DNA from: Kiloniellales bacterium
GTDB taxonomy: Bacteria; Pseudomonadota; Alphaproteobacteria; Kiloniellales; JAKSBE01
Direction: 5' to 3'
DNA length: 64,000 bases
NCBI GenBank assembly: GCA_030066685.1
Contig: JASJBF010000033.1
Location: forward strand, 1-64,000
Position numbers and translations under genes: made by a program. Within the stretch, counting starts at the first letter, position 1. Each line of letters starts with the position of its first letter. This document shows positions 7,779 through 33,069 of this stretch, piece after piece. The notes beneath the pieces are model-generated. The model worked only from the letters and a program-made list of their open reading frames with translations, searched no databases and was not told the origin of the DNA.

Positions 7779-7793
7779 GCGCGGCGACCGCCC

Positions 7794-7898
7794 TAGAGCA
7801 GCCTGCGTTCATTCGAACGCAGATGAGCTGCTCTATCTATATGGAATAGATCGAATTATCTGCGCTCAATTGAGTCCAATTGAGCGCAGTTTGATCTA
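7794..7898. repeat. Double intergenic palindrome (TAGAGC family)
   Basis: The first hairpin pairs AGAGCAGC with GCTGCTCT, enclosing CTGCGTTC and GAACGCAG (7795-7833). The second has perfect 13-base arms CTGCGCTCAATTG (7860-7872) and CAATTGAGCGCAG (7877-7889), flanked by TAGATC and GATCTA. The unit is the reverse complement of the element at 13078-13150. It may also act as a terminator for the DUF1194 gene, although no T-run follows. Confidence 0.85.
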
Positions 7899-8152
7899 GT
7901 CCGGCGCAGCGGCGGCAGCAGGGGCCGAGATCTGATACACTCTCCAACATCGACGTTCGTTGGATGATGGACCGACCGTGCCGCGCGCGAGCCTGTTGCG
8001 GCGCCTGCACCGGCTATCGTCCCGTGCAGGCTCTCCGGCCCGATGGCCGGTCCCGTCGAGCGCCGGTCGGTGACCGGCCCTCGGGGACCCGGCGTCGCGG
8101 TTTCGTCTGATGGCACCGGCGGCACGCTCGGCCATCCGGAAGGAGGTCTGCC
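7899..8152. other. Intergenic region, no gene seen
   Basis: Sequence between the palindromes and the GYD gene. Frames on both strands lack domain signatures. A GGAAGGAGG ribosome site is present just before 8153. Confidence 0.4.
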
Positions 8153-26409: not shown

Positions 26410-26964
26410 ATGCGCCAGCCCCTGACGCCTCACCCGGAGACGCCCTGCGGCGCGGTGATCCAGATCGCCGTCGAGGCCGCGCGGACGGGCCCCGGCGCCC
26501 TGCGGCTGCGCTACCGGGTGACCGGCGAGATCGGCGGCCTCAGCCTGCCGCCCGTGTCCGCGCCCGCACGCGCCGAAGGTCTCTGGCAGCACAGCTGCTT
26601 CGAGGTCTTCCTGCGGACCGGGCCGGGCGGCGCCTACCACGAATTTAACTTCGCGCCCTCGACGCGCTGGGCGGCCTACAGCTTCGAGGGCTACCGGGAG
26701 GGCATGCGGGTTGCCCACGAAGTGGAGGCGCCGCGGCTCGCGGTCGAGACCCGGGACGGGGCCTTCGAGCTGCGGGCCAATCTGGCGCTGGACCGTCTGC
26801 CCGACCTGTCGGCCGACGCGCCCTGGCGGCTCGGCCTCTCGGCGGTGATCGAGGAGGCAAGCGGCCGCCTCTCCTACTGGGCCCTGGCGCATCCGCCGGG
26901 GCGGCCGGACTTTCATCATTCCCATTGCTTTGCCCTGGAACTTCCCGCAGCTTTGCGGCCATGA
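26410..26964 (+). CDS. DOMON-like domain protein
   Basis: A 184-residue beta-rich protein of the DOMON-like family, often found beside DUF1343 genes. Recognisable blocks are GLWQHSCFEVFL, YHEFNFAPSTRWAAY and the C-terminal FHHSHCFALEL. DOMON folds bind haem or sugars; here the ligand is unknown. There is no signal peptide. Its stop overlaps the start of the NamZ-like gene (ATGA), implying translational coupling. Confidence 0.85.
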   Translation: MRQPLTPHPETPCGAVIQIAVEAARTGPGALRLRYRVTGEIGGLSLPPVSAPARAEGLWQHSCFEVFLRTGPGGAYHEFNFAPSTRWAAYSFEGYREGMRVAHEVEAPRLAVETRDGAFELRANLALDRLPDLSADAPWRLGLSAVIEEASGRLSYWALAHPPGRPDFHHSHCFALELPAALRP

Positions 26965-28163
26965 ACTTCGGCATCGACCGGCTCATCGCCGACCCCGCCC
27001 TGCGCGCCCCGCTCCAGGGCAAGCGCGTCGCCCTCCTCGCCCACCCGGCCTCGCTCACCGCGGACCTCACCCACGCCCTCGATGCGCTCGCCGCCTGCGG
27101 CGATCTCCGGCTCAGCGCCGCCTTCGGCCCGCAGCATGGCCTGCGCGGCGACAAGCAGGACAACATGATCGAGACGGCGGACTACGACGATCCGGTGCAC
27201 GGCATCCCGGTCTTCAGCCTCTACGGCGAGGTTCGCCGGCCGACGGACGCGATGATGGAAAGCTTCGACGTCCTGATGGTCGACCTCCAGGACCTGGGCT
27301 GCCGGATCTACACCTACGTCACGACTCTGCGCTACGTCCTTGAGGCGGCCGCCGACCGCGGCAAGGCGGTCCGGGTGCTCGACCGGCCCAATCCCGCCGG
27401 CCGGCCGGTCGAGGGCCTGCGCCTGCGCCCCGGCTGGGAGAGCTTCGTCGGCGCCGGCCCCCTGCCGATCCGCCACGGCCTCACCCTGGGCGAGCTCGGC
27501 CAGTGGTTCGTCGCCAGCCTCGGCCTCGACGTGGACTACGGGGTCATCGAGATGCAGGGCTGGCAGCCCGAGGCCGGGCCGGGCTTCGGCTGGCCACTGG
27601 GCGCGCGGGTCTGGGTCAACCCCAGCCCCAACGCGCCCAACCTCTGGATGGCGCGGGCCTTCCCGGGCACGGTGATGCTCGAAGGCACGACCCTCTCCGA
27701 GGGCCGCGGCACGACCCGGCCGCTCGAGCTCTTCGGCGCCCCCGACCTCGACGCGCGCCGGCTCCTCGCTGAGATGCAGGCCCTGGCGCCCGAATGGCTG
27801 GCCGGCTGCCGCCTGCGCGACTGCTGGTTCGAGCCGACCTTCCACAAGCACCAGGGCAAGCTCTGCCACGGCCTGCAGATCCACGCCGAGGCCCCCGGCT
27901 ACGACCACGGGGCCTTCCGCCCTTGGCGCCTCCAGGCCCTGGCCTTCAAGGCGCTCCGCCGGCTCCATCCGGACTACGAGATCTGGCGCGACTTCCCCTA
28001 CGAGTACGAGGAGGGCAAGCTGCCGATCGACGTCATCTGCGGCGGGCCGCAGCTGCGCGACTGGGTCGACGACCCGGCCGCGACGCCCCGGGACCTCGAC
28101 GCGCTGGCCAACCCGGACGAGCAGGCCTGGCTGAGCGAACGCCGGGCCCATCTCCTCTATTGA
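26961..28163 (+). CDS. namZ: DUF1343 / NamZ-like exo-beta-N-acetylmuramidase
   Basis: The protein has 400 residues. The DUF1343 family includes NamZ, which removes terminal MurNAc from peptidoglycan glycans during recycling. Family blocks are present: GPQHGLRGDKQDNM, VFSLYGEVRRPT, DLQDLGCRIYTY, DRPNPAGRPVEG, ATTLSEGRGTTRPLE-like TTLSEGRGTTRP and FRPWRLQALAF. It has no signal peptide, so it may act on cytoplasmic muropeptides. The start overlaps the DOMON gene. Remnants of its last codons occur twice downstream (28611-28665 and 30669-30743), which points to a local duplication. Confidence 0.88.
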   Translation: MNFGIDRLIADPALRAPLQGKRVALLAHPASLTADLTHALDALAACGDLRLSAAFGPQHGLRGDKQDNMIETADYDDPVHGIPVFSLYGEVRRPTDAMMESFDVLMVDLQDLGCRIYTYVTTLRYVLEAAADRGKAVRVLDRPNPAGRPVEGLRLRPGWESFVGAGPLPIRHGLTLGELGQWFVASLGLDVDYGVIEMQGWQPEAGPGFGWPLGARVWVNPSPNAPNLWMARAFPGTVMLEGTTLSEGRGTTRPLELFGAPDLDARRLLAEMQALAPEWLAGCRLRDCWFEPTFHKHQGKLCHGLQIHAEAPGYDHGAFRPWRLQALAFKALRRLHPDYEIWRDFPYEYEEGKLPIDVICGGPQLRDWVDDPAATPRDLDALANPDEQAWLSERRAHLLY

Positions 28164-28222
28164 GTGCGACCGAAGGCGCGGACCCTGGCAAGGCACAACA
28201 CAAGCCCGAAAGCGAAGTTCCA

Positions 28223-28570
28223 ATGAGAACCTGGATCGCGATCCTGCTCCTGGTCGGCCTCCTGGCTCCCGGCCCGCTCCTCGCCCCCGCACCGGCCAGC
28301 GGCCAAGCGGTGGGCGACATCGTTGCGGGCGAGCGCCTGGCGCGCGAGGTCTGCGCCGCCTGTCACGCGGTCGAGAAGGGCGACACCCTGGTCTCCTTCG
28401 AGGGCGCGCCGCCCTTCCAGCGGGTCGCCAACGACCCTTCGGCGAGCGAGGTCGGCCTGCGCGTCTTCCTGAGGACGCCGCACGAGAAGATGCCCGACCT
28501 CATCCTGACCCCGCAGCAGACCGACGACATCGTCACCTACATTCTGAGCCTCAGGGACCGGGTGGACTGA
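28223..28570 (+). CDS. Small class I cytochrome c
   Basis: A 115-residue periplasmic mono-haem cytochrome. The signal peptide (about 1-28) ends in ASGQA. The haem motif is CAACH at 44-48, and the likely axial ligand is Met90 in HEKMPDLIL. The C-terminal helix TDDIVTYILSL is typical. The ATG at 28223 has a weak GAAG upstream. The redox partner is unknown. It lies between the intact namZ end and the first namZ remnant, so it may have arrived with the inserted block. Confidence 0.88.
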   Translation: MRTWIAILLLVGLLAPGPLLAPAPASGQAVGDIVAGERLAREVCAACHAVEKGDTLVSFEGAPPFQRVANDPSASEVGLRVFLRTPHEKMPDLILTPQQTDDIVTYILSLRDRVD

Positions 28571-28923
28571 ACCCGGACACCTAAGAGCGACTGGTGTCGA
28601 CAACGGACTAACGCTGCCGAACCTCGACGCCCTTGCCACCCCGGACGAGCCGTCTCGGCTGGAACCGCTTGGTCCCACACGTCGGAAGCCGGGTTTTCCG
28701 GCAGAAATCGCTCAGGCCACTCTCCGCAATATGACATATATTTTATATGCTAAAAGTGGTATAGTTATGCCGTTGTCTCGACTTGACCCAATGGAGAGGC
28801 GGTCATGTCAGCAGACGCCCCAGCTCCAAAGTCCCGCATTGCCGCAACGTAGTCACCCGTTTCCACTGCGGGCGCGGTCTTGGCCGACGACGACGATGAC
28901 AATGACGTTCGGGAGGCCTGGAA
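28571..28923. other. Intergenic region with namZ scrap and AT-rich patch
   Basis: It holds a namZ 3'-end fragment (28611-28665), an AT-rich patch near 28725-28770 (ATATATTTTATATG) that may contain a promoter, and a short broken frame at 28805. There is no intact gene. Confidence 0.5.
28611..28665 (+). pseudogene. namZ 3'-end fragment, copy 1
   Basis: The frame reads LPNLDALATPDEPSRLEP and corresponds to PRDLDALANPDEQAWLSE near the C-terminus of the intact gene (around 28085-28145). Only about 18 codons can be matched. Confidence 0.6.
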
Positions 28924-28970
28924 ATGCTGTTCACACAATGCACGAACACCAACAGGATGATCGCTGGCGG
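28805..28970 (+). pseudogene. Broken short exported-peptide frame with Asp run
   Basis: An ATG at 28805 opens a frame with a stop after 15 codons. The same frame then continues as VSTAGAVLADDDDDND, which looks like a signal-peptide end followed by Asp-rich mature sequence. It may be the decayed start of a relative of the next gene. This is a weak call. Confidence 0.25.
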
Positions 28971-30534
28971 CCTGGTGATCACCGCCCTTTGCTTTCTCTA
29001 CGGAGGACGATCTGAGGCTGAGCCGCTCCTGCCTTGCTCGTCTCCGGATGCCGCAGAGATTATGGTGCAGGAGGGTTTCGACTGCGAGGTCTTCGTCGCG
29101 GGCCTCTTCCAGCCGACCGCCCTCGCCGTCGAAGCGAATGGGAACGTCTTGGTCACCGAAACCGGTTTCACCACAGGTCAGAACCCGGTCAAGAGATTTT
29201 CCCCTGCCGGCGAGCTGCTGGCCACCAGCGATCCCTTTGCGGATCCGGACGGCGTCACCGTCGACACGACGGGGCGGATCCTGGTCACGGACAGCCCGCA
29301 GATCACCATCGTCAACTCCCTCGACGGCGGGATCGACGAGGTCTGCCAGCCCGTGCCCGGCAATCTGCAGGACGTCGACGTGGACAGCCAGGGCCGGATC
29401 GTCGTCATGGACTTCAACGGCAACATCTACGATGTCGTCTGCGGCGAGAGCACGACGCTCTGCGTTACCCTGGGCTCGATCGGCGTGGGCGTCGCCTTCG
29501 ACGAAAGCGATCGGCTCTTCGCCACCCGTTTCGCCGCGGGAGCCGGGCTCTTTCGGATCGACCAGTGCACGCCGGCCGACACGGTCAAGGTCGCGAACTT
29601 GTCGGGGGCAAGGCGCATCGCCTTTGGCCCCGGCGGGCGTTTTGGAGAGGAGATCTACGTCACCGACGAGAATGTCACCAATGCCGGCCGGCTCGTGACC
29701 ATCGACGAGGTCAGCGGCACCGAAACCGAGTTCGCCACCGGGTTCATGATACCTAACGGTCTCGCCTTCGACGGGCAGAATAGCTTGTACGTGACCGACC
29801 TGCGACGCGGCCGCGTGATCAAGATCTTCGCCGAAGAGCTTCCGGTCGCGGATTTCCGCTGCAACGAGGCCGAGGGCGCCGACATCGACATCGTCGTCTC
29901 GCTCGAGGATCAGTTCGAAGCGATGGAAGCGCTGGTCGACGAGCCGACGCGCTTCTGCAGTCCGGTCGATAAGGACGGCGGGGGAATCCCCGACCCCAGC
30001 GCGCACCTGGCCTGCTACGAGATCGAGGTCAGTGGCAACGATGACGATGACGATGACGACGATAGCGCTTCGGTTCTGCGCGAGGTCACGATCGAAAATC
30101 AGTTCGGGGAGCAAGTGCTGACCACGGGCAGGTCGAAATCACTCTGCGTTCCCTCCAGGAAGAATGAGGAGCCCTCGGACTTGGTCCTCGACCATTTCAA
30201 GTGCTACGAGGCCAAGGGGGACGGCTTGAACGCAACGGTCGACCTCTCCGATGGGTCCTCGACCGCGCGCGGGGTGATCGTGAAGCGCCCGAAGCGTTTC
30301 TGTAATCCGGTCGATAAGAACGGTGAGGGAATCCTGGATTCCTCGTCCCACTTGACCTGCTATCGGATTCGTGTGCCCGGCCCTGAGTACGACGACGAGC
30401 TCGCTGTGCTCGCCTCCAACCAGTTCGGCGAGCAGGTTCTGGAGGTCGGCGATCCCAAGCTGCTCTGCATTCCCTCGGAGAAGCTGGGTTTCGAGGTGAT
30501 CGAGAGCCCGAACGACGACGACGATGACGACTGA
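28924..30534 (+). CDS. Secreted beta-propeller protein with two four-Cys repeats
   Basis: The protein has 536 residues. An N-terminal signal segment (about 11-32) is followed by an NHL/SMP-30-like propeller (about 45-305). Its repeated blades are of the type PTALAVEANGNVLVTE and IAFGPGGRFGEEIYVTD. Then come two copies of a Cys-rich repeat, about 310-412 and 423-520. Each has four Cys residues (313, 345, 364, 408 and 427, 460, 479, 515) and shares PVDKxGxGI and NQFGEQVL. A run of eight Asp interrupts repeat one, and a second Asp run ends the protein. GGGAGG precedes the ATG. It is probably extracellular and calcium-binding; the function is unknown. Confidence 0.85.
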   Translation: MLFTQCTNTNRMIAGGLVITALCFLYGGRSEAEPLLPCSSPDAAEIMVQEGFDCEVFVAGLFQPTALAVEANGNVLVTETGFTTGQNPVKRFSPAGELLATSDPFADPDGVTVDTTGRILVTDSPQITIVNSLDGGIDEVCQPVPGNLQDVDVDSQGRIVVMDFNGNIYDVVCGESTTLCVTLGSIGVGVAFDESDRLFATRFAAGAGLFRIDQCTPADTVKVANLSGARRIAFGPGGRFGEEIYVTDENVTNAGRLVTIDEVSGTETEFATGFMIPNGLAFDGQNSLYVTDLRRGRVIKIFAEELPVADFRCNEAEGADIDIVVSLEDQFEAMEALVDEPTRFCSPVDKDGGGIPDPSAHLACYEIEVSGNDDDDDDDDSASVLREVTIENQFGEQVLTTGRSKSLCVPSRKNEEPSDLVLDHFKCYEAKGDGLNATVDLSDGSSTARGVIVKRPKRFCNPVDKNGEGILDSSSHLTCYRIRVPGPEYDDELAVLASNQFGEQVLEVGDPKLLCIPSEKLGFEVIESPNDDDDDD

Positions 30535-30668
30535 CACAGCGCCAACGAACCCGGAGCCGGAGGGTGCTTGACGAATTCGAAAGCTCTTCCGGTTCCGGCA
30601 CCCCGCGAGGATTGGCTGATTCCTTTCGGTGCCTCCGATGACCGGATAGAGCCCGTTGCAAAGAACCA

Positions 30669-30743
30669 CTCGCGTCGCCATGCTTGGCCGCGTCGGAGGC
30701 GCAGGCTTGGCTGAACGAGCGCCGGGCGCATCTGCTGTATTGA
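30669..30743 (+). pseudogene. namZ 3'-end fragment, copy 2
   Basis: The frame ends SEAQAWLNERRAHLLY followed by TGA, almost identical to the intact C-terminus DEQAWLSERRAHLLY at 28163. The upstream residues LASPCLAA loosely match LANPD. The fragment lies directly before the small gene at 30761. Confidence 0.75.
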
Positions 30744-30760
30744 AAGACGCTGGCCGTGTG

Positions 30761-31087
30761 ATGGAAGACGACAACGAGACCTGGATCCTCGACGCGGGCG
30801 ACGAGGTCATCCAAAAGCGCGCGGCGCAGGGGCCGGCCGCGCTGCAGCCCCTCGAGCGGCTGATCTATTGCCTCTGGGTCGCCGACTACGGCATGCGGAA
30901 CGCCGGCGACCTCTCGGCTGCCGGCGATCTCTACCCGGACTTCCAGGCCGAGGCGGCGGAGCTGGCAGGTGACCTGAAGCTGCCGACCACCCATGCCGCC
31001 TTCGCCCTGCCTCCGGCCGAATTGGAGCAGCGCTACCTCCAGCTTTTCGATGCCATCTGCGAGGAAATTCGCGCGAAGCAGGCCTGA
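30761..31087 (+). CDS. Small acidic cytoplasmic protein of unknown function
   Basis: The protein has 108 residues, with no signal peptide and a high Glu/Asp content. A conserved-looking helical core is LERLIYCLWVADYGMRNAGDL, followed by helices ending EEIRAKQA. The family is not recognised. The start at 30761 follows the namZ remnant; the ribosome site is weak. It may originally have stood directly behind namZ before the cytochrome/propeller block was inserted. Confidence 0.65.
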   Translation: MEDDNETWILDAGDEVIQKRAAQGPAALQPLERLIYCLWVADYGMRNAGDLSAAGDLYPDFQAEAAELAGDLKLPTTHAAFALPPAELEQRYLQLFDAICEEIRAKQA

Positions 31088-31195: not shown

Positions 31196-31684
31196 ATGCC
31201 GAAATTCCTGTTCAAGGCCAACGACGACGTGATTTCCCACTGCCAATGCCAGGACGCGCCGGCCATGTCGACCGGGCAGTTGGACTGCCCCTGGTGTGGC
31301 TGCGGCTGGCTGATCTCCTGCGCGAAGTGCGCGAAGGCCTTCACCTACGGAATCGTGCGGGAGACGGACGTACCGATCATCGAGCTAGGGCGCAGGGAGG
31401 TGCGGCGCCGTGGGCTCGACTCGGTCTCGGAGCAGGAACTCGAAGACTGGGCCGACGCCATGGCGCGCGAGTTCGCGCGTTTCGACATCGGCCAGATCGT
31501 GGTCTACCTCGACGGTCACTATTGGCCGCTGGACGCCGAGAAGGTCACCTTCGACGGCTACTTCGCCAGTCACGACCTCGAGGTCCTGCCCCATGCAGAG
31601 GCGCTGAAACGGCCCGAGGCCCTGTCCGAGCTGCTCTCCGACCAGGCCTACTGGTTGGAACGGGAGCTGCCCGACCGCGACTGA
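31196..31684 (+). CDS. Putative zinc-ribbon protein of unknown function
   Basis: The protein has 162 residues. The N-terminal part is rich in Cys: Cys16 and 18 (HCQCQ), Cys31, 34 and 36 (CPWCGC) and Cys42 and 45 (CAKC). This suggests one or two zinc ribbons at about 14-50. The rest is an acidic alpha/beta region (WADAMAREFARFDIGQIVVYLDGHYWPL). No known family was recognised. There is a short AGGTG ahead of the ATG. It stands alone. Confidence 0.72.
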   Translation: MPKFLFKANDDVISHCQCQDAPAMSTGQLDCPWCGCGWLISCAKCAKAFTYGIVRETDVPIIELGRREVRRRGLDSVSEQELEDWADAMAREFARFDIGQIVVYLDGHYWPLDAEKVTFDGYFASHDLEVLPHAEALKRPEALSELLSDQAYWLERELPDRD

Positions 31685-31834: not shown

Positions 31835-32701
31835 TCAGGGCCCCGCCCAGATGGTCATGGCGTCGTACTTCGCCTGGCGGCGCTGCGCGCCCGGCAGCGT
31901 CCGGTCGTGGTCGAAGGGCGCGGACTCCCAGGAGCCGTACATGGGGTTGGCGATCACGAACCACAGGCTGCCCCACATGTCCCTGTGCTCGGTCAAGAGC
32001 GCCTGCCGCGCCGCCGGGGAGCCCTTGTAGCCGTCAACGAAGTCGCCGAAGTTGTCGCCGATCATCATGACGACACGGTAGGTCTCGGCGATGTGGGCGC
32101 GCCGCGGACTCTTCTCGAACGACTTCCAGGCCTCGCTTTCGCCCCGCGTCAGCACGGTATCCTCGGTCTCGTCGACCGGGTAGCCCAAGGCCTTGAGGTT
32201 GTTGCGGGTCGCCTGCTCCTGAGGCGCCCTGCGGTTGGTCACGTAGAAGACCTTCACGCCCTTGCTCACCGCACGCTCGATGAACTCGAGCGAACCCGGA
32301 ATCGGGCGCGATGTCTCGGAGCGGACGAAGGAAACCCAGGTCTTCAAGGCCGCGCTCTCGCCCGTCTTCGCGAGCCAGGCCTGATAGGCCGAATTGTCGA
32401 GCACCGTCTCATCGACGTCCAGGATGACCGCCGGCGGCTTGTCCCCGAAGCCGCTGCCCTGCTCGGCGGGGGCCGCGGTCAGGGATGTATCGGCCAGGGC
32501 CTCGTCCAGCATGATCCCGGCGAGCCTGTAAATCGCCAGGCTGTTGGCCTTGAACTCGACCGACGACTGCGTCCAGAGGGTCGCGTTGAGGAGATCATTG
32601 TGCGCCTTCGGCTCGAAAGCCGCCGCGCCTTCCGGCAGAGCGACCTGGACCGCGGCCGCCGCAACCAGCGTGAGGCCGATCGTCTTGATGGCTCGTCGCA
32701 T
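31835..32701 (-). CDS. HAD-type acid phosphatase (class B/C, 5'-nucleotidase e(P4)-like)
   Basis: The protein has 288 residues. A signal peptide (about 1-28, ending GAAAF) directs it to the periplasm. There is no lipobox Cys, unlike e(P4) lipoproteins. The HAD motif DVDETVLDN contains nucleophile Asp95 and acid Asp97. Further motifs are VFYVTNRR and VMMIGDNFGDF. It probably dephosphorylates nucleotides or phosphomonoesters outside the cytoplasm. GGAGGA precedes the ATG at 32701; an upstream in-frame ATG at 32719 is less likely. Confidence 0.9.
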   Translation of the reverse strand: MRRAIKTIGLTLVAAAAVQVALPEGAAAFEPKAHNDLLNATLWTQSSVEFKANSLAIYRLAGIMLDEALADTSLTAAPAEQGSGFGDKPPAVILDVDETVLDNSAYQAWLAKTGESAALKTWVSFVRSETSRPIPGSLEFIERAVSKGVKVFYVTNRRAPQEQATRNNLKALGYPVDETEDTVLTRGESEAWKSFEKSPRRAHIAETYRVVMMIGDNFGDFVDGYKGSPAARQALLTEHRDMWGSLWFVIANPMYGSWESAPFDHDRTLPGAQRRQAKYDAMTIWAGP

Positions 32702-33069
32702 GGGCCTGTCCTCCCCCATCGGGTCGTCGGGCCCTCGCGCAGCGCCGGATCTGACGGCCCAAGCCAGAACATAGTGCGCGCGCCGCGCGCATGACAGGCG
32801 TTTGCGTCGCGCCCCGCAGGACCTCCTGGTCACGCGGGCTGCCCGGAGAGCGGGTGTCGGAGGGCCCTTGATCGGCGAAGTGCGCCGTTCCGCGAGAGAT
32901 CGCGATCATCACGCTCGAGGAGAACTTGGTTCTCTAGGCTGCCGTCTCGGCGTGACTATTCCTGGCGGCAACGAAGGACGGGACGCGAACCCAGGACAGG
33001 ACTGCCGTCTACGAGAGCCAGCAAACGGGCTCCGGCCCGGGCAGGGCAACCGGGGATTTCTCACGCGAC
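32702..33069. other. Intergenic region, no gene seen
   Basis: This is 368 bases between two minus-strand genes. A small GAGAAC/GTTCTC hairpin lies near 32918-32936 without a T-run. A GGTTCG-like word on the minus strand near 32980 does not fold into a tRNA. Confidence 0.4.

Follow-up and report, generated by a model that had tools for sequence, protein, structure and literature searches.

Two displaced copies of the namZ end suggest at least two rounds of gene addition behind namZ in a Kiloniellales bacterium

The stretch of DNA analysed here, 64,000 nucleotides of a Kiloniellales genome (the window), contains a gene of the exo-beta-N-acetylmuramidase family, namZ (26961..28163, + strand), which carries NamZ_N and NamZ_C domains and serves as the anchor of the locus. 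A second whole namZ was not found in the same genome, which gave one protein match at E 0.001. Upstream of namZ stands a conserved gene (26410..26964, +) with a tblastn match in 78 of 80 GTDB namZ loci (the best 80 of 546) and no family in Pfam and NCBIfam searches. Behind namZ, on the same strand, come a small c-type cytochrome (28223..28570; Cytochrom_C, E 1.7e-7) and an NHL-type propeller protein (28924..30534) with NHL and DUF7450 matches and poly-Asp runs besides its DUF7450 region; a block upstream of the propeller gene (28745..28826, +) is 87% identical by blastn to a sibling genome (G002, L039 3090-3170). Two further genes on the + strand encode proteins of unknown kind, one of 108 amino acids (30761..31087) and one of 162 (31196..31684); Pfam and NCBIfam searches gave neither of them a family, and the second had relatives in none of the 57 genomes of the order. 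The series is followed on the - strand by a putative gene (31835..32833) that we take to be acid-phosphatase-like from its DVDETVLDN motif and that is 84% identical in nucleotides to L039 5795-6778 of the same sibling. A scan of the locus for promoters and terminators yielded nothing useful, and the intervals 28662-28830 and 30520-30765 had no repeats in their own genome at E 0.001 among the matches listed.

The window holds both a cytochrome c gene and a propeller gene, and each has behind it a short copy, or scrap, of the namZ 3' end in the same orientation as namZ (+ strand). Scrap 1 (28587..28661) starts 16 nt past the cytochrome stop codon and is a decayed copy of namZ 28057-28133, 76% identical with indels; its alignment scores 56, against 28 for the best of 500 simple shuffles, and its ungapped core (28611-28661) is identical to namZ at 40 of 51 positions. 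Scrap 2 (30685..30743) is a namZ end that includes the stop codon, and the ATG of the 30761 gene lies 17 nt past that codon in an arrangement resembling an operon joint. Its core (30694-30743) matches namZ 28114-28163 through the stop codon at 42 of 50 positions (84%), with a score of 60 against 33 for the best of 500 simple shuffles; laxer scoring widens it to 30685-30743 with 47 of 59 positions identical, weakly so from 30685. The left edge of scrap 2 is sharp, the identities per 10 nt leftward from the stop codon being 8, 9, 8, 9, 8, 5, 0, 4 and 2. An earlier note on this DNA had reported that the end of namZ recurs twice in the same orientation, and these scores bear it out, the similarity holding up on alignment for both scraps. 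Its first scrap, placed at 28611-28665, exists, with 24 nt on the left omitted; its second, placed at 30669-30743, has the right end and began 16-25 nt too early.

That these resemblances arose by chance or as an assembly artefact is scarcely credible. When the last 264 nt of namZ were compared with the window by blastn, scrap 2 was recovered at E 3e-10 and scrap 1 at E 2e-7, the next match after namZ itself and both scraps having E 0.05. Among the 91 ORFs of the window that span 200 aa or more and have 1.5 kb or more behind them (both strands and all frames, many of them spurious), namZ was the sole one whose last 110 nt had a match scoring above 37 within 3 kb downstream. The genome is a draft of 73 contigs, which leaves some room for misassembly, but the scraps have accumulated differences from namZ, which an assembly echo would lack, and they lie far from the ends of a contig of 139,583 bases. 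Two more namZ-tail matches in the same genome, on contigs C52 and C54, are 29-37 nt long and G+C-rich and were taken as chance. Genome-wide scrap counts are lower bounds, since 40 of 196 candidates were scored in the namZ-tail search, which did not list scrap 2, and the namZ tail was not among the matches listed in another search for repeats.

The two scraps overlap on namZ by 20-29 nt (28105/28114-28133), rather than covering adjacent parts of it as the earlier note had stated. Over the 29 positions of the overlap they agree with each other at 20, and with namZ at 23 and 22, respectively. Overlapping, and no closer to each other than to namZ, they do not resemble the two sides of one break or of a target duplication. 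They also differ in their mode of divergence, on the small counts of 8 differences for scrap 2 and 11 for scrap 1. Scrap 2 is codon-like, with 0, 2 and 6 differences at codon positions 1, 2 and 3 across 16 codons and no indel, and is the less decayed of the two; the core of scrap 1 is not, with 3, 4 and 4 differences across 17 codons and indels further left. Over the same 16 codons the namZ genes of the two siblings differ from that of the window by 1/2/6 (G001) and 0/0/5 (G002), and over the same 50 nt scrap 2 agrees with the window namZ at 42 positions, G001 at 41 and G002 at 45. Both in pattern and in amount, the differences of scrap 2 from namZ thus resemble those of an orthologue in another species, an indication that this scrap belonged to a functional namZ until not long ago. 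In pairwise identity it is about equally far from all three namZ tails (window, G001 and G002), while scrap 1 is slightly nearest to the window's own namZ; scrap 2 aligns to the namZ tail in five of the seven namZ-bearing relatives, whereas the search for the intact namZ end listed it in 2 of the seven, so that this count, too, is a lower bound.

Comparison with relatives shows how these genes are arranged elsewhere. It turned up two further genomes of the genus, each of which has one of the genes behind namZ without the other. In G001 the cytochrome c gene comes next after namZ and the propeller is missing; the window cytochrome is 78% identical in amino acids to its product (C4:25164-25493), the next matches being 53-54%, and a close orthologue behind namZ occurs in G001 only. 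Neither the propeller nor the acid phosphatase has a match in the G001 genome. In G002, namZ is followed by the propeller (76% identical in amino acids) and then by the acid-phosphatase-like gene, which is present in one of the seven namZ-bearing relatives; the best cytochrome match is only 39% and located elsewhere. The propeller has its orthologue behind namZ in G002 only and no match in the 56 other relatives. No scraps were found behind namZ in either sibling.

These arrangements bear on the possibility, raised in the earlier note, that the propeller inserted into, and so split, a single old second namZ end. The scraps do stand in the correct order and on the correct strand, scrap 1 as the left part and scrap 2 as the right part. 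Their overlap, in which they agree with each other no better than with namZ, and their different types of decay nevertheless speak against a split, as does G002, in which the propeller lies behind an intact namZ, 450 nt from its stop codon to the propeller start codon, and no second namZ end was found between the two genes or downstream. We therefore regard the split as improbable.

At the DNA level, the blastn pieces of at least 100 nt common to the window and the sibling contigs are namZ with the 26.4 kb gene, the cytochrome c gene (G001), the propeller and acid phosphatase genes (G002) and a short dispersed repeat; nothing beyond these was found in common, and by tblastx some weaker matches are scattered over other parts of the window. 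These genes therefore behave as separate pieces. Between scrap 1 and the propeller block (28662-28744), no similarity to the matching G002 stretch was found (score 17, with 256 of 500 shuffles as good), so that the co-linearity of scrap 1 and propeller is a matter of gene order. At fourfold sites, the cytochrome c gene has diverged from G001 (8/55, 14.5%) much as namZ has (42/217, 19.4%), and the acid phosphatase gene from G002 (30/124, 24.2%) much as namZ has (52/208, 25.0%); the propeller gene stands somewhat above namZ (71/211, 33.6%). Along namZ itself, visual inspection of site counts per 150 nt brought out no obvious mosaic block favouring one sibling.

The earlier note had proposed repeated segmental duplication as a second explanation, and the namZ end has indeed been duplicated more than once. 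In its in-place form, two tandem segmental duplications would have been followed by deletions that spared only the ends of the extra namZ copies, with new genes filling the gaps. Scraps that share one orientation and consist of tail pieces only, in surroundings that share little DNA-level synteny with the siblings, would agree with such a course. We consider it rather unlikely, however, given that the genes behind the tails are mutually unrelated and two of them stand singly behind namZ in siblings, which fits serial gain of allelic or foreign segments, anchored on namZ, better than tandem duplication in place. Moreover, scrap 2 has diverged as a working gene to a between-species level and would need a long-lived second namZ, whereas each of the eight namZ-bearing genomes (own included) has one namZ match.

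We lean towards reading the locus as a stack of alternative segments from downstream of namZ, assembled by at least two additive recombination events with namZ as the homologous anchor. From the scraps and the sibling loci we infer the following route of recombination, donors and sequence of events. Incoming DNA from a related bacterium would carry the namZ region together with the donor's gene or genes behind namZ; homologous recombination would act on one side, within or upstream of namZ, and illegitimate recombination on the far side, inside or near the recipient's namZ 3' end. Each event would leave an intact namZ, hybrid or replaced, followed by the donor's downstream gene, and would shift the recipient's truncated namZ end, together with the recipient's genes behind it, further downstream. 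The namZ end formerly ahead of the propeller would then survive as scrap 1 and that formerly ahead of the 30761 gene as scrap 2, each the mark of an old junction and probably without any function of its own.

Several observations bear on such serial gain, some for and some against it. Part of the anchor is duplicated at the far side, as scraps 1 and 2, a feature of homology-facilitated illegitimate recombination. Simpler states, in which a gained gene lies directly behind the anchor, were found for two of the three segments and not for the 30761 gene. Divergence like that of another lineage's allele is seen, on small counts, in scrap 2 and not in scrap 1. If entry were always directly behind namZ, scrap 2 would be expected to be the older and more decayed; as it is the less decayed, either the stretch from namZ through cytochrome and scrap 1 to the propeller was replaced as a whole in the last event, or the events came in another order. 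The comparison recommended in the earlier note, with relatives in which namZ directly precedes the 30761 gene, yielded the single-gene states of the two siblings, and no genome with namZ and then the 30761 gene was found. Among the 57 order relatives, this gene has matches only in G053 (68%) and G034 (38%), with no namZ tail in the 1.5 kb ahead of either homologue. The 80 GTDB loci mentioned above do not have it near namZ within the flanks covered, and a class-wide draw of 384 other genomes, at least four of them shared with the order set, did not contain it either. The complete order namZ-cytochrome-propeller-30761 was found in no relative, and accordingly in none that lacks the scraps.

The process envisaged is known from other bacteria. 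Homology-facilitated illegitimate recombination has been proposed for the arrays of orphan immunity genes in the type VI secretion clusters of Vibrio cholerae, and these share several features with the namZ locus: a conserved upstream anchor with a replaced downstream module, retention of the gene that followed the former gene behind the latter's displaced 3' end, and simpler intermediate states in related strains (PMC5361080). What is displaced in those arrays is a toxin effector together with its immunity gene (PMC5361080), and retention of the old gene is plausibly selected. At the namZ locus, by contrast, a cell-wall hydrolase gene that is conserved across species acts as the anchor, and the cytochrome c, propeller and unknown protein encoded behind it have no evident relation to it. 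Rhs loci, described in the same source as strings of orphaned 3' regions, likewise combine a conserved 5' part with successive displaced 3' ends; their 3' region is the variable part, while the tail encoded by the namZ scraps is conserved and only what comes after it differs (PMC5361080). In the laboratory, joining by homology at one end of the incoming DNA and illegitimately at the other, the same combination as proposed for namZ, is reported from experiments with competent or conjugating bacteria (PMC3240628), whereas at the namZ locus it is read from old junctions only.

The namZ locus is, modestly, a fresh example of the pattern published for the V. cholerae arrays. With the siblings still in single-gene states, a route proposed for toxin-immunity and Rhs loci becomes traceable in ordinary surroundings, and short displaced gene ends can serve as a record of how neighbouring genes were gained. 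More tentatively, this lineage could be using the end of namZ, an ordinary conserved gene, as a docking anchor for the repeated capture, through homology on one side only, of whole neighbour genes from relatives, stacking rather than exchanging them; if so, the growth mode of toxin arrays would be a general route for accreting unrelated genes, legible from such short displaced ends.

Displaced 3' gene ends are also the classical trace of site-specific integration. The namZ 3' end might accordingly be a present or past attachment site, at which successive integrase-dependent insertions displaced the gene end, and both scraps do start within the last 110 nt of namZ. We hold this to be very improbable, as none of the four proteins encoded at 28.2-31.7 kb matched an integrase in Pfam and NCBIfam, the overlap contains no identical core common to namZ and both scraps (20-23 of 29 positions alike), and no comparable displaced tail turned up downstream in other namZ loci. 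The latter were drawn from the same 80 GTDB loci, 78 of which have at least 150 nt downstream (two were left out; flanks from 235 nt to about 10 kb), and their best downstream score was 41, against 60 and 56 here. As far as these data go, displaced ends behind namZ are not a general hot spot.

Seven loci in that scan of about 150 flanks beat the best of 25 shuffles by at least 4: L074 (40), L086 (35), L096 (37) and L123 (41) downstream, and L045 (43), L111 (44) and L121 (35) upstream. All except L121 were retested with 100 Markov resamples each, which were as good or better in 0/100 cases for L074, L123, L045 and L111, 1/100 for L096 and 2/100 for L086. The six alignments were taken as noise, a weak true echo being possible, because all are gappy and G+C-rich, L096 alone is both downstream and near the gene end, and so many flanks were tried. 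On plasmids, the propeller protein has only weak matches, at 27-28% identity in 2 records.

The 3' end of namZ, an exo-beta-N-acetylmuramidase family gene (26961-28163), recurs twice downstream on the same strand, and these displaced gene ends are a genuine, tidy and modest case. The locus lies in a contig of 139,583 bases from a 5.96 Mb genome in 73 contigs. A conserved gene of unknown function starting at 26410 precedes namZ, which is followed by a small cytochrome c gene (28223-28570), the first copy, scrap 1 (28587-28661), an NHL-propeller gene with a DUF7450 region (28924-30534), scrap 2 (30685/30694-30743), two genes of unknown function starting at 30761 and 31196, and, on the strand opposite to these, a gene (31835-32833) that we take to be acid-phosphatase-like. 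The propeller protein carries aspartate runs, internally and at its extreme C-terminus, that are kept in the sibling genome G002. The 162-aa product of 31196-31684 has two CxxC motifs (CPWC, CAKC), matches no Pfam or NCBIfam family and has relatives in 0 of 57 order genomes.

The recurrence described in the earlier note is borne out by local alignment, in which scraps 1 and 2 score 56 and 60 against the namZ end (maxima of 28 and 33 over 500 shuffles), and by a blastn search of the entire window with the final 264 nt of namZ, where namZ itself and the two scraps are the only strong matches, making chance resemblance very unlikely. Among 91 long-ORF tails in the window, namZ alone has a downstream echo of such strength (runner-up score 37); that a fault of assembly generated the copies is likewise unlikely. 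Jointly the scraps cover namZ 28057-28163 and have 20-29 nt of it in common, rather than being strictly adjacent parts of its C-terminus, as had been suggested.

By codon position (first/second/third), scrap 2 and namZ show 0/2/6 differences over the last 16 codons including the stop, close to the pattern of the siblings (1/2/6 and 0/0/5). Scrap 2 is indel-free and retains its stop codon, and the ATG of the 30761 gene follows at a distance of 17 nt. Small as these counts are, we infer that scrap 2 may be the end of a namZ that worked until recently, and that namZ would formerly have stood immediately ahead of the 30761 gene. Scrap 1 shows 3/4/4 differences over 17 codons and indels farther left, a pattern that, small counts granted, is as expected of an older remnant.

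Of the 58 genomes searched (the window's own and 57 order relatives), eight carry namZ, its own included, and two of these, G001 and G002, belong to the same genus. G001 has a cytochrome c orthologue 213 nt behind namZ (78% aa; next matches in the set 53-54%); propeller and acid phosphatase gave no match there, although that draft carries 10% contamination and the absence is not final. The gene next to namZ in G002 is the propeller (76% aa), found in no other order relative, and the acid phosphatase comes after it; the block upstream of the propeller shared with the window starts 93 nt past the namZ stop. For the cytochrome, G002 has at best a 39% homologue, located elsewhere; in a genome 81% complete this absence is not final. 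Downstream of namZ, no tail echo above shuffles occurs in G001, G002 or five other relatives, over a reach of at most 9 kb per genome (only 235 nt in G019, 3.5 kb in G023). Among 78 flanks, downstream echoes with scores of 35-41 turned up in four; they are weak and were treated as noise.

These comparisons disfavour the proposal that a second namZ end was split by insertion of the propeller gene. Across the 29 overlapping sites the scraps agree with each other at 20 and with namZ at 23 and 22, and thus give no sign of being two sides of one break; the G002 order, with no echo behind it, speaks against it too. Duplication of namZ with later deletion is conceivable, yet requires long-lived extra namZ genes, none of which was seen in the genomes searched. 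Use of the namZ 3' end as an integrase-dependent site is opposed by the lack of an integrase among the four proteins of 28.2-31.7 kb, of a core and of recurrence.

The simplest account is that this genome stacked segments by namZ-anchored recombination, two of them being held singly by the siblings. Homology in namZ and in the conserved gene ahead of it would anchor the exchange, and on the far side an illegitimate joint close to the former namZ end would close it. Judged by decay, scrap 2 would be the one displaced most recently. This fits a putative last event in which a single block of namZ, cytochrome, scrap 1 and propeller entered before a native namZ-30761 pair, and does not fit a strict order with the newest next to namZ. 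Against stacking, namZ adjoining the 30761 gene was found in no genome searched, no obvious mosaic block was seen by eye along namZ, and the 83 nt behind scrap 1 are unlike the matching G002 stretch. Displaced gene ends have been described for type VI and Rhs loci, and the same model is proposed for Vibrio cholerae type VI immunity-gene arrays, where incoming modules push older ones back and the former effector's 3' end stays behind (PMC5361080).

Otherwise the window has almost no DNA-level synteny with the two sibling contigs, and tblastx shows scattered weaker matches in other parts of it. Between propeller and acid phosphatase, the G002 locus (L039 5123-5795), corresponding to the window stretch with scrap 2 and the two unknown genes, appears by eye to be filled with TGTCATGCCCGG...CCGGGCATCCAT-type repeats. 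A dispersed 110-nt repeat (7793-7902) is 90% identical to G001 C4:25631-25740, just behind cytochrome c; G001 has a further copy and G002 has one (81-82%), and by eye the repeat looks palindromic, like a small mobile repeat.
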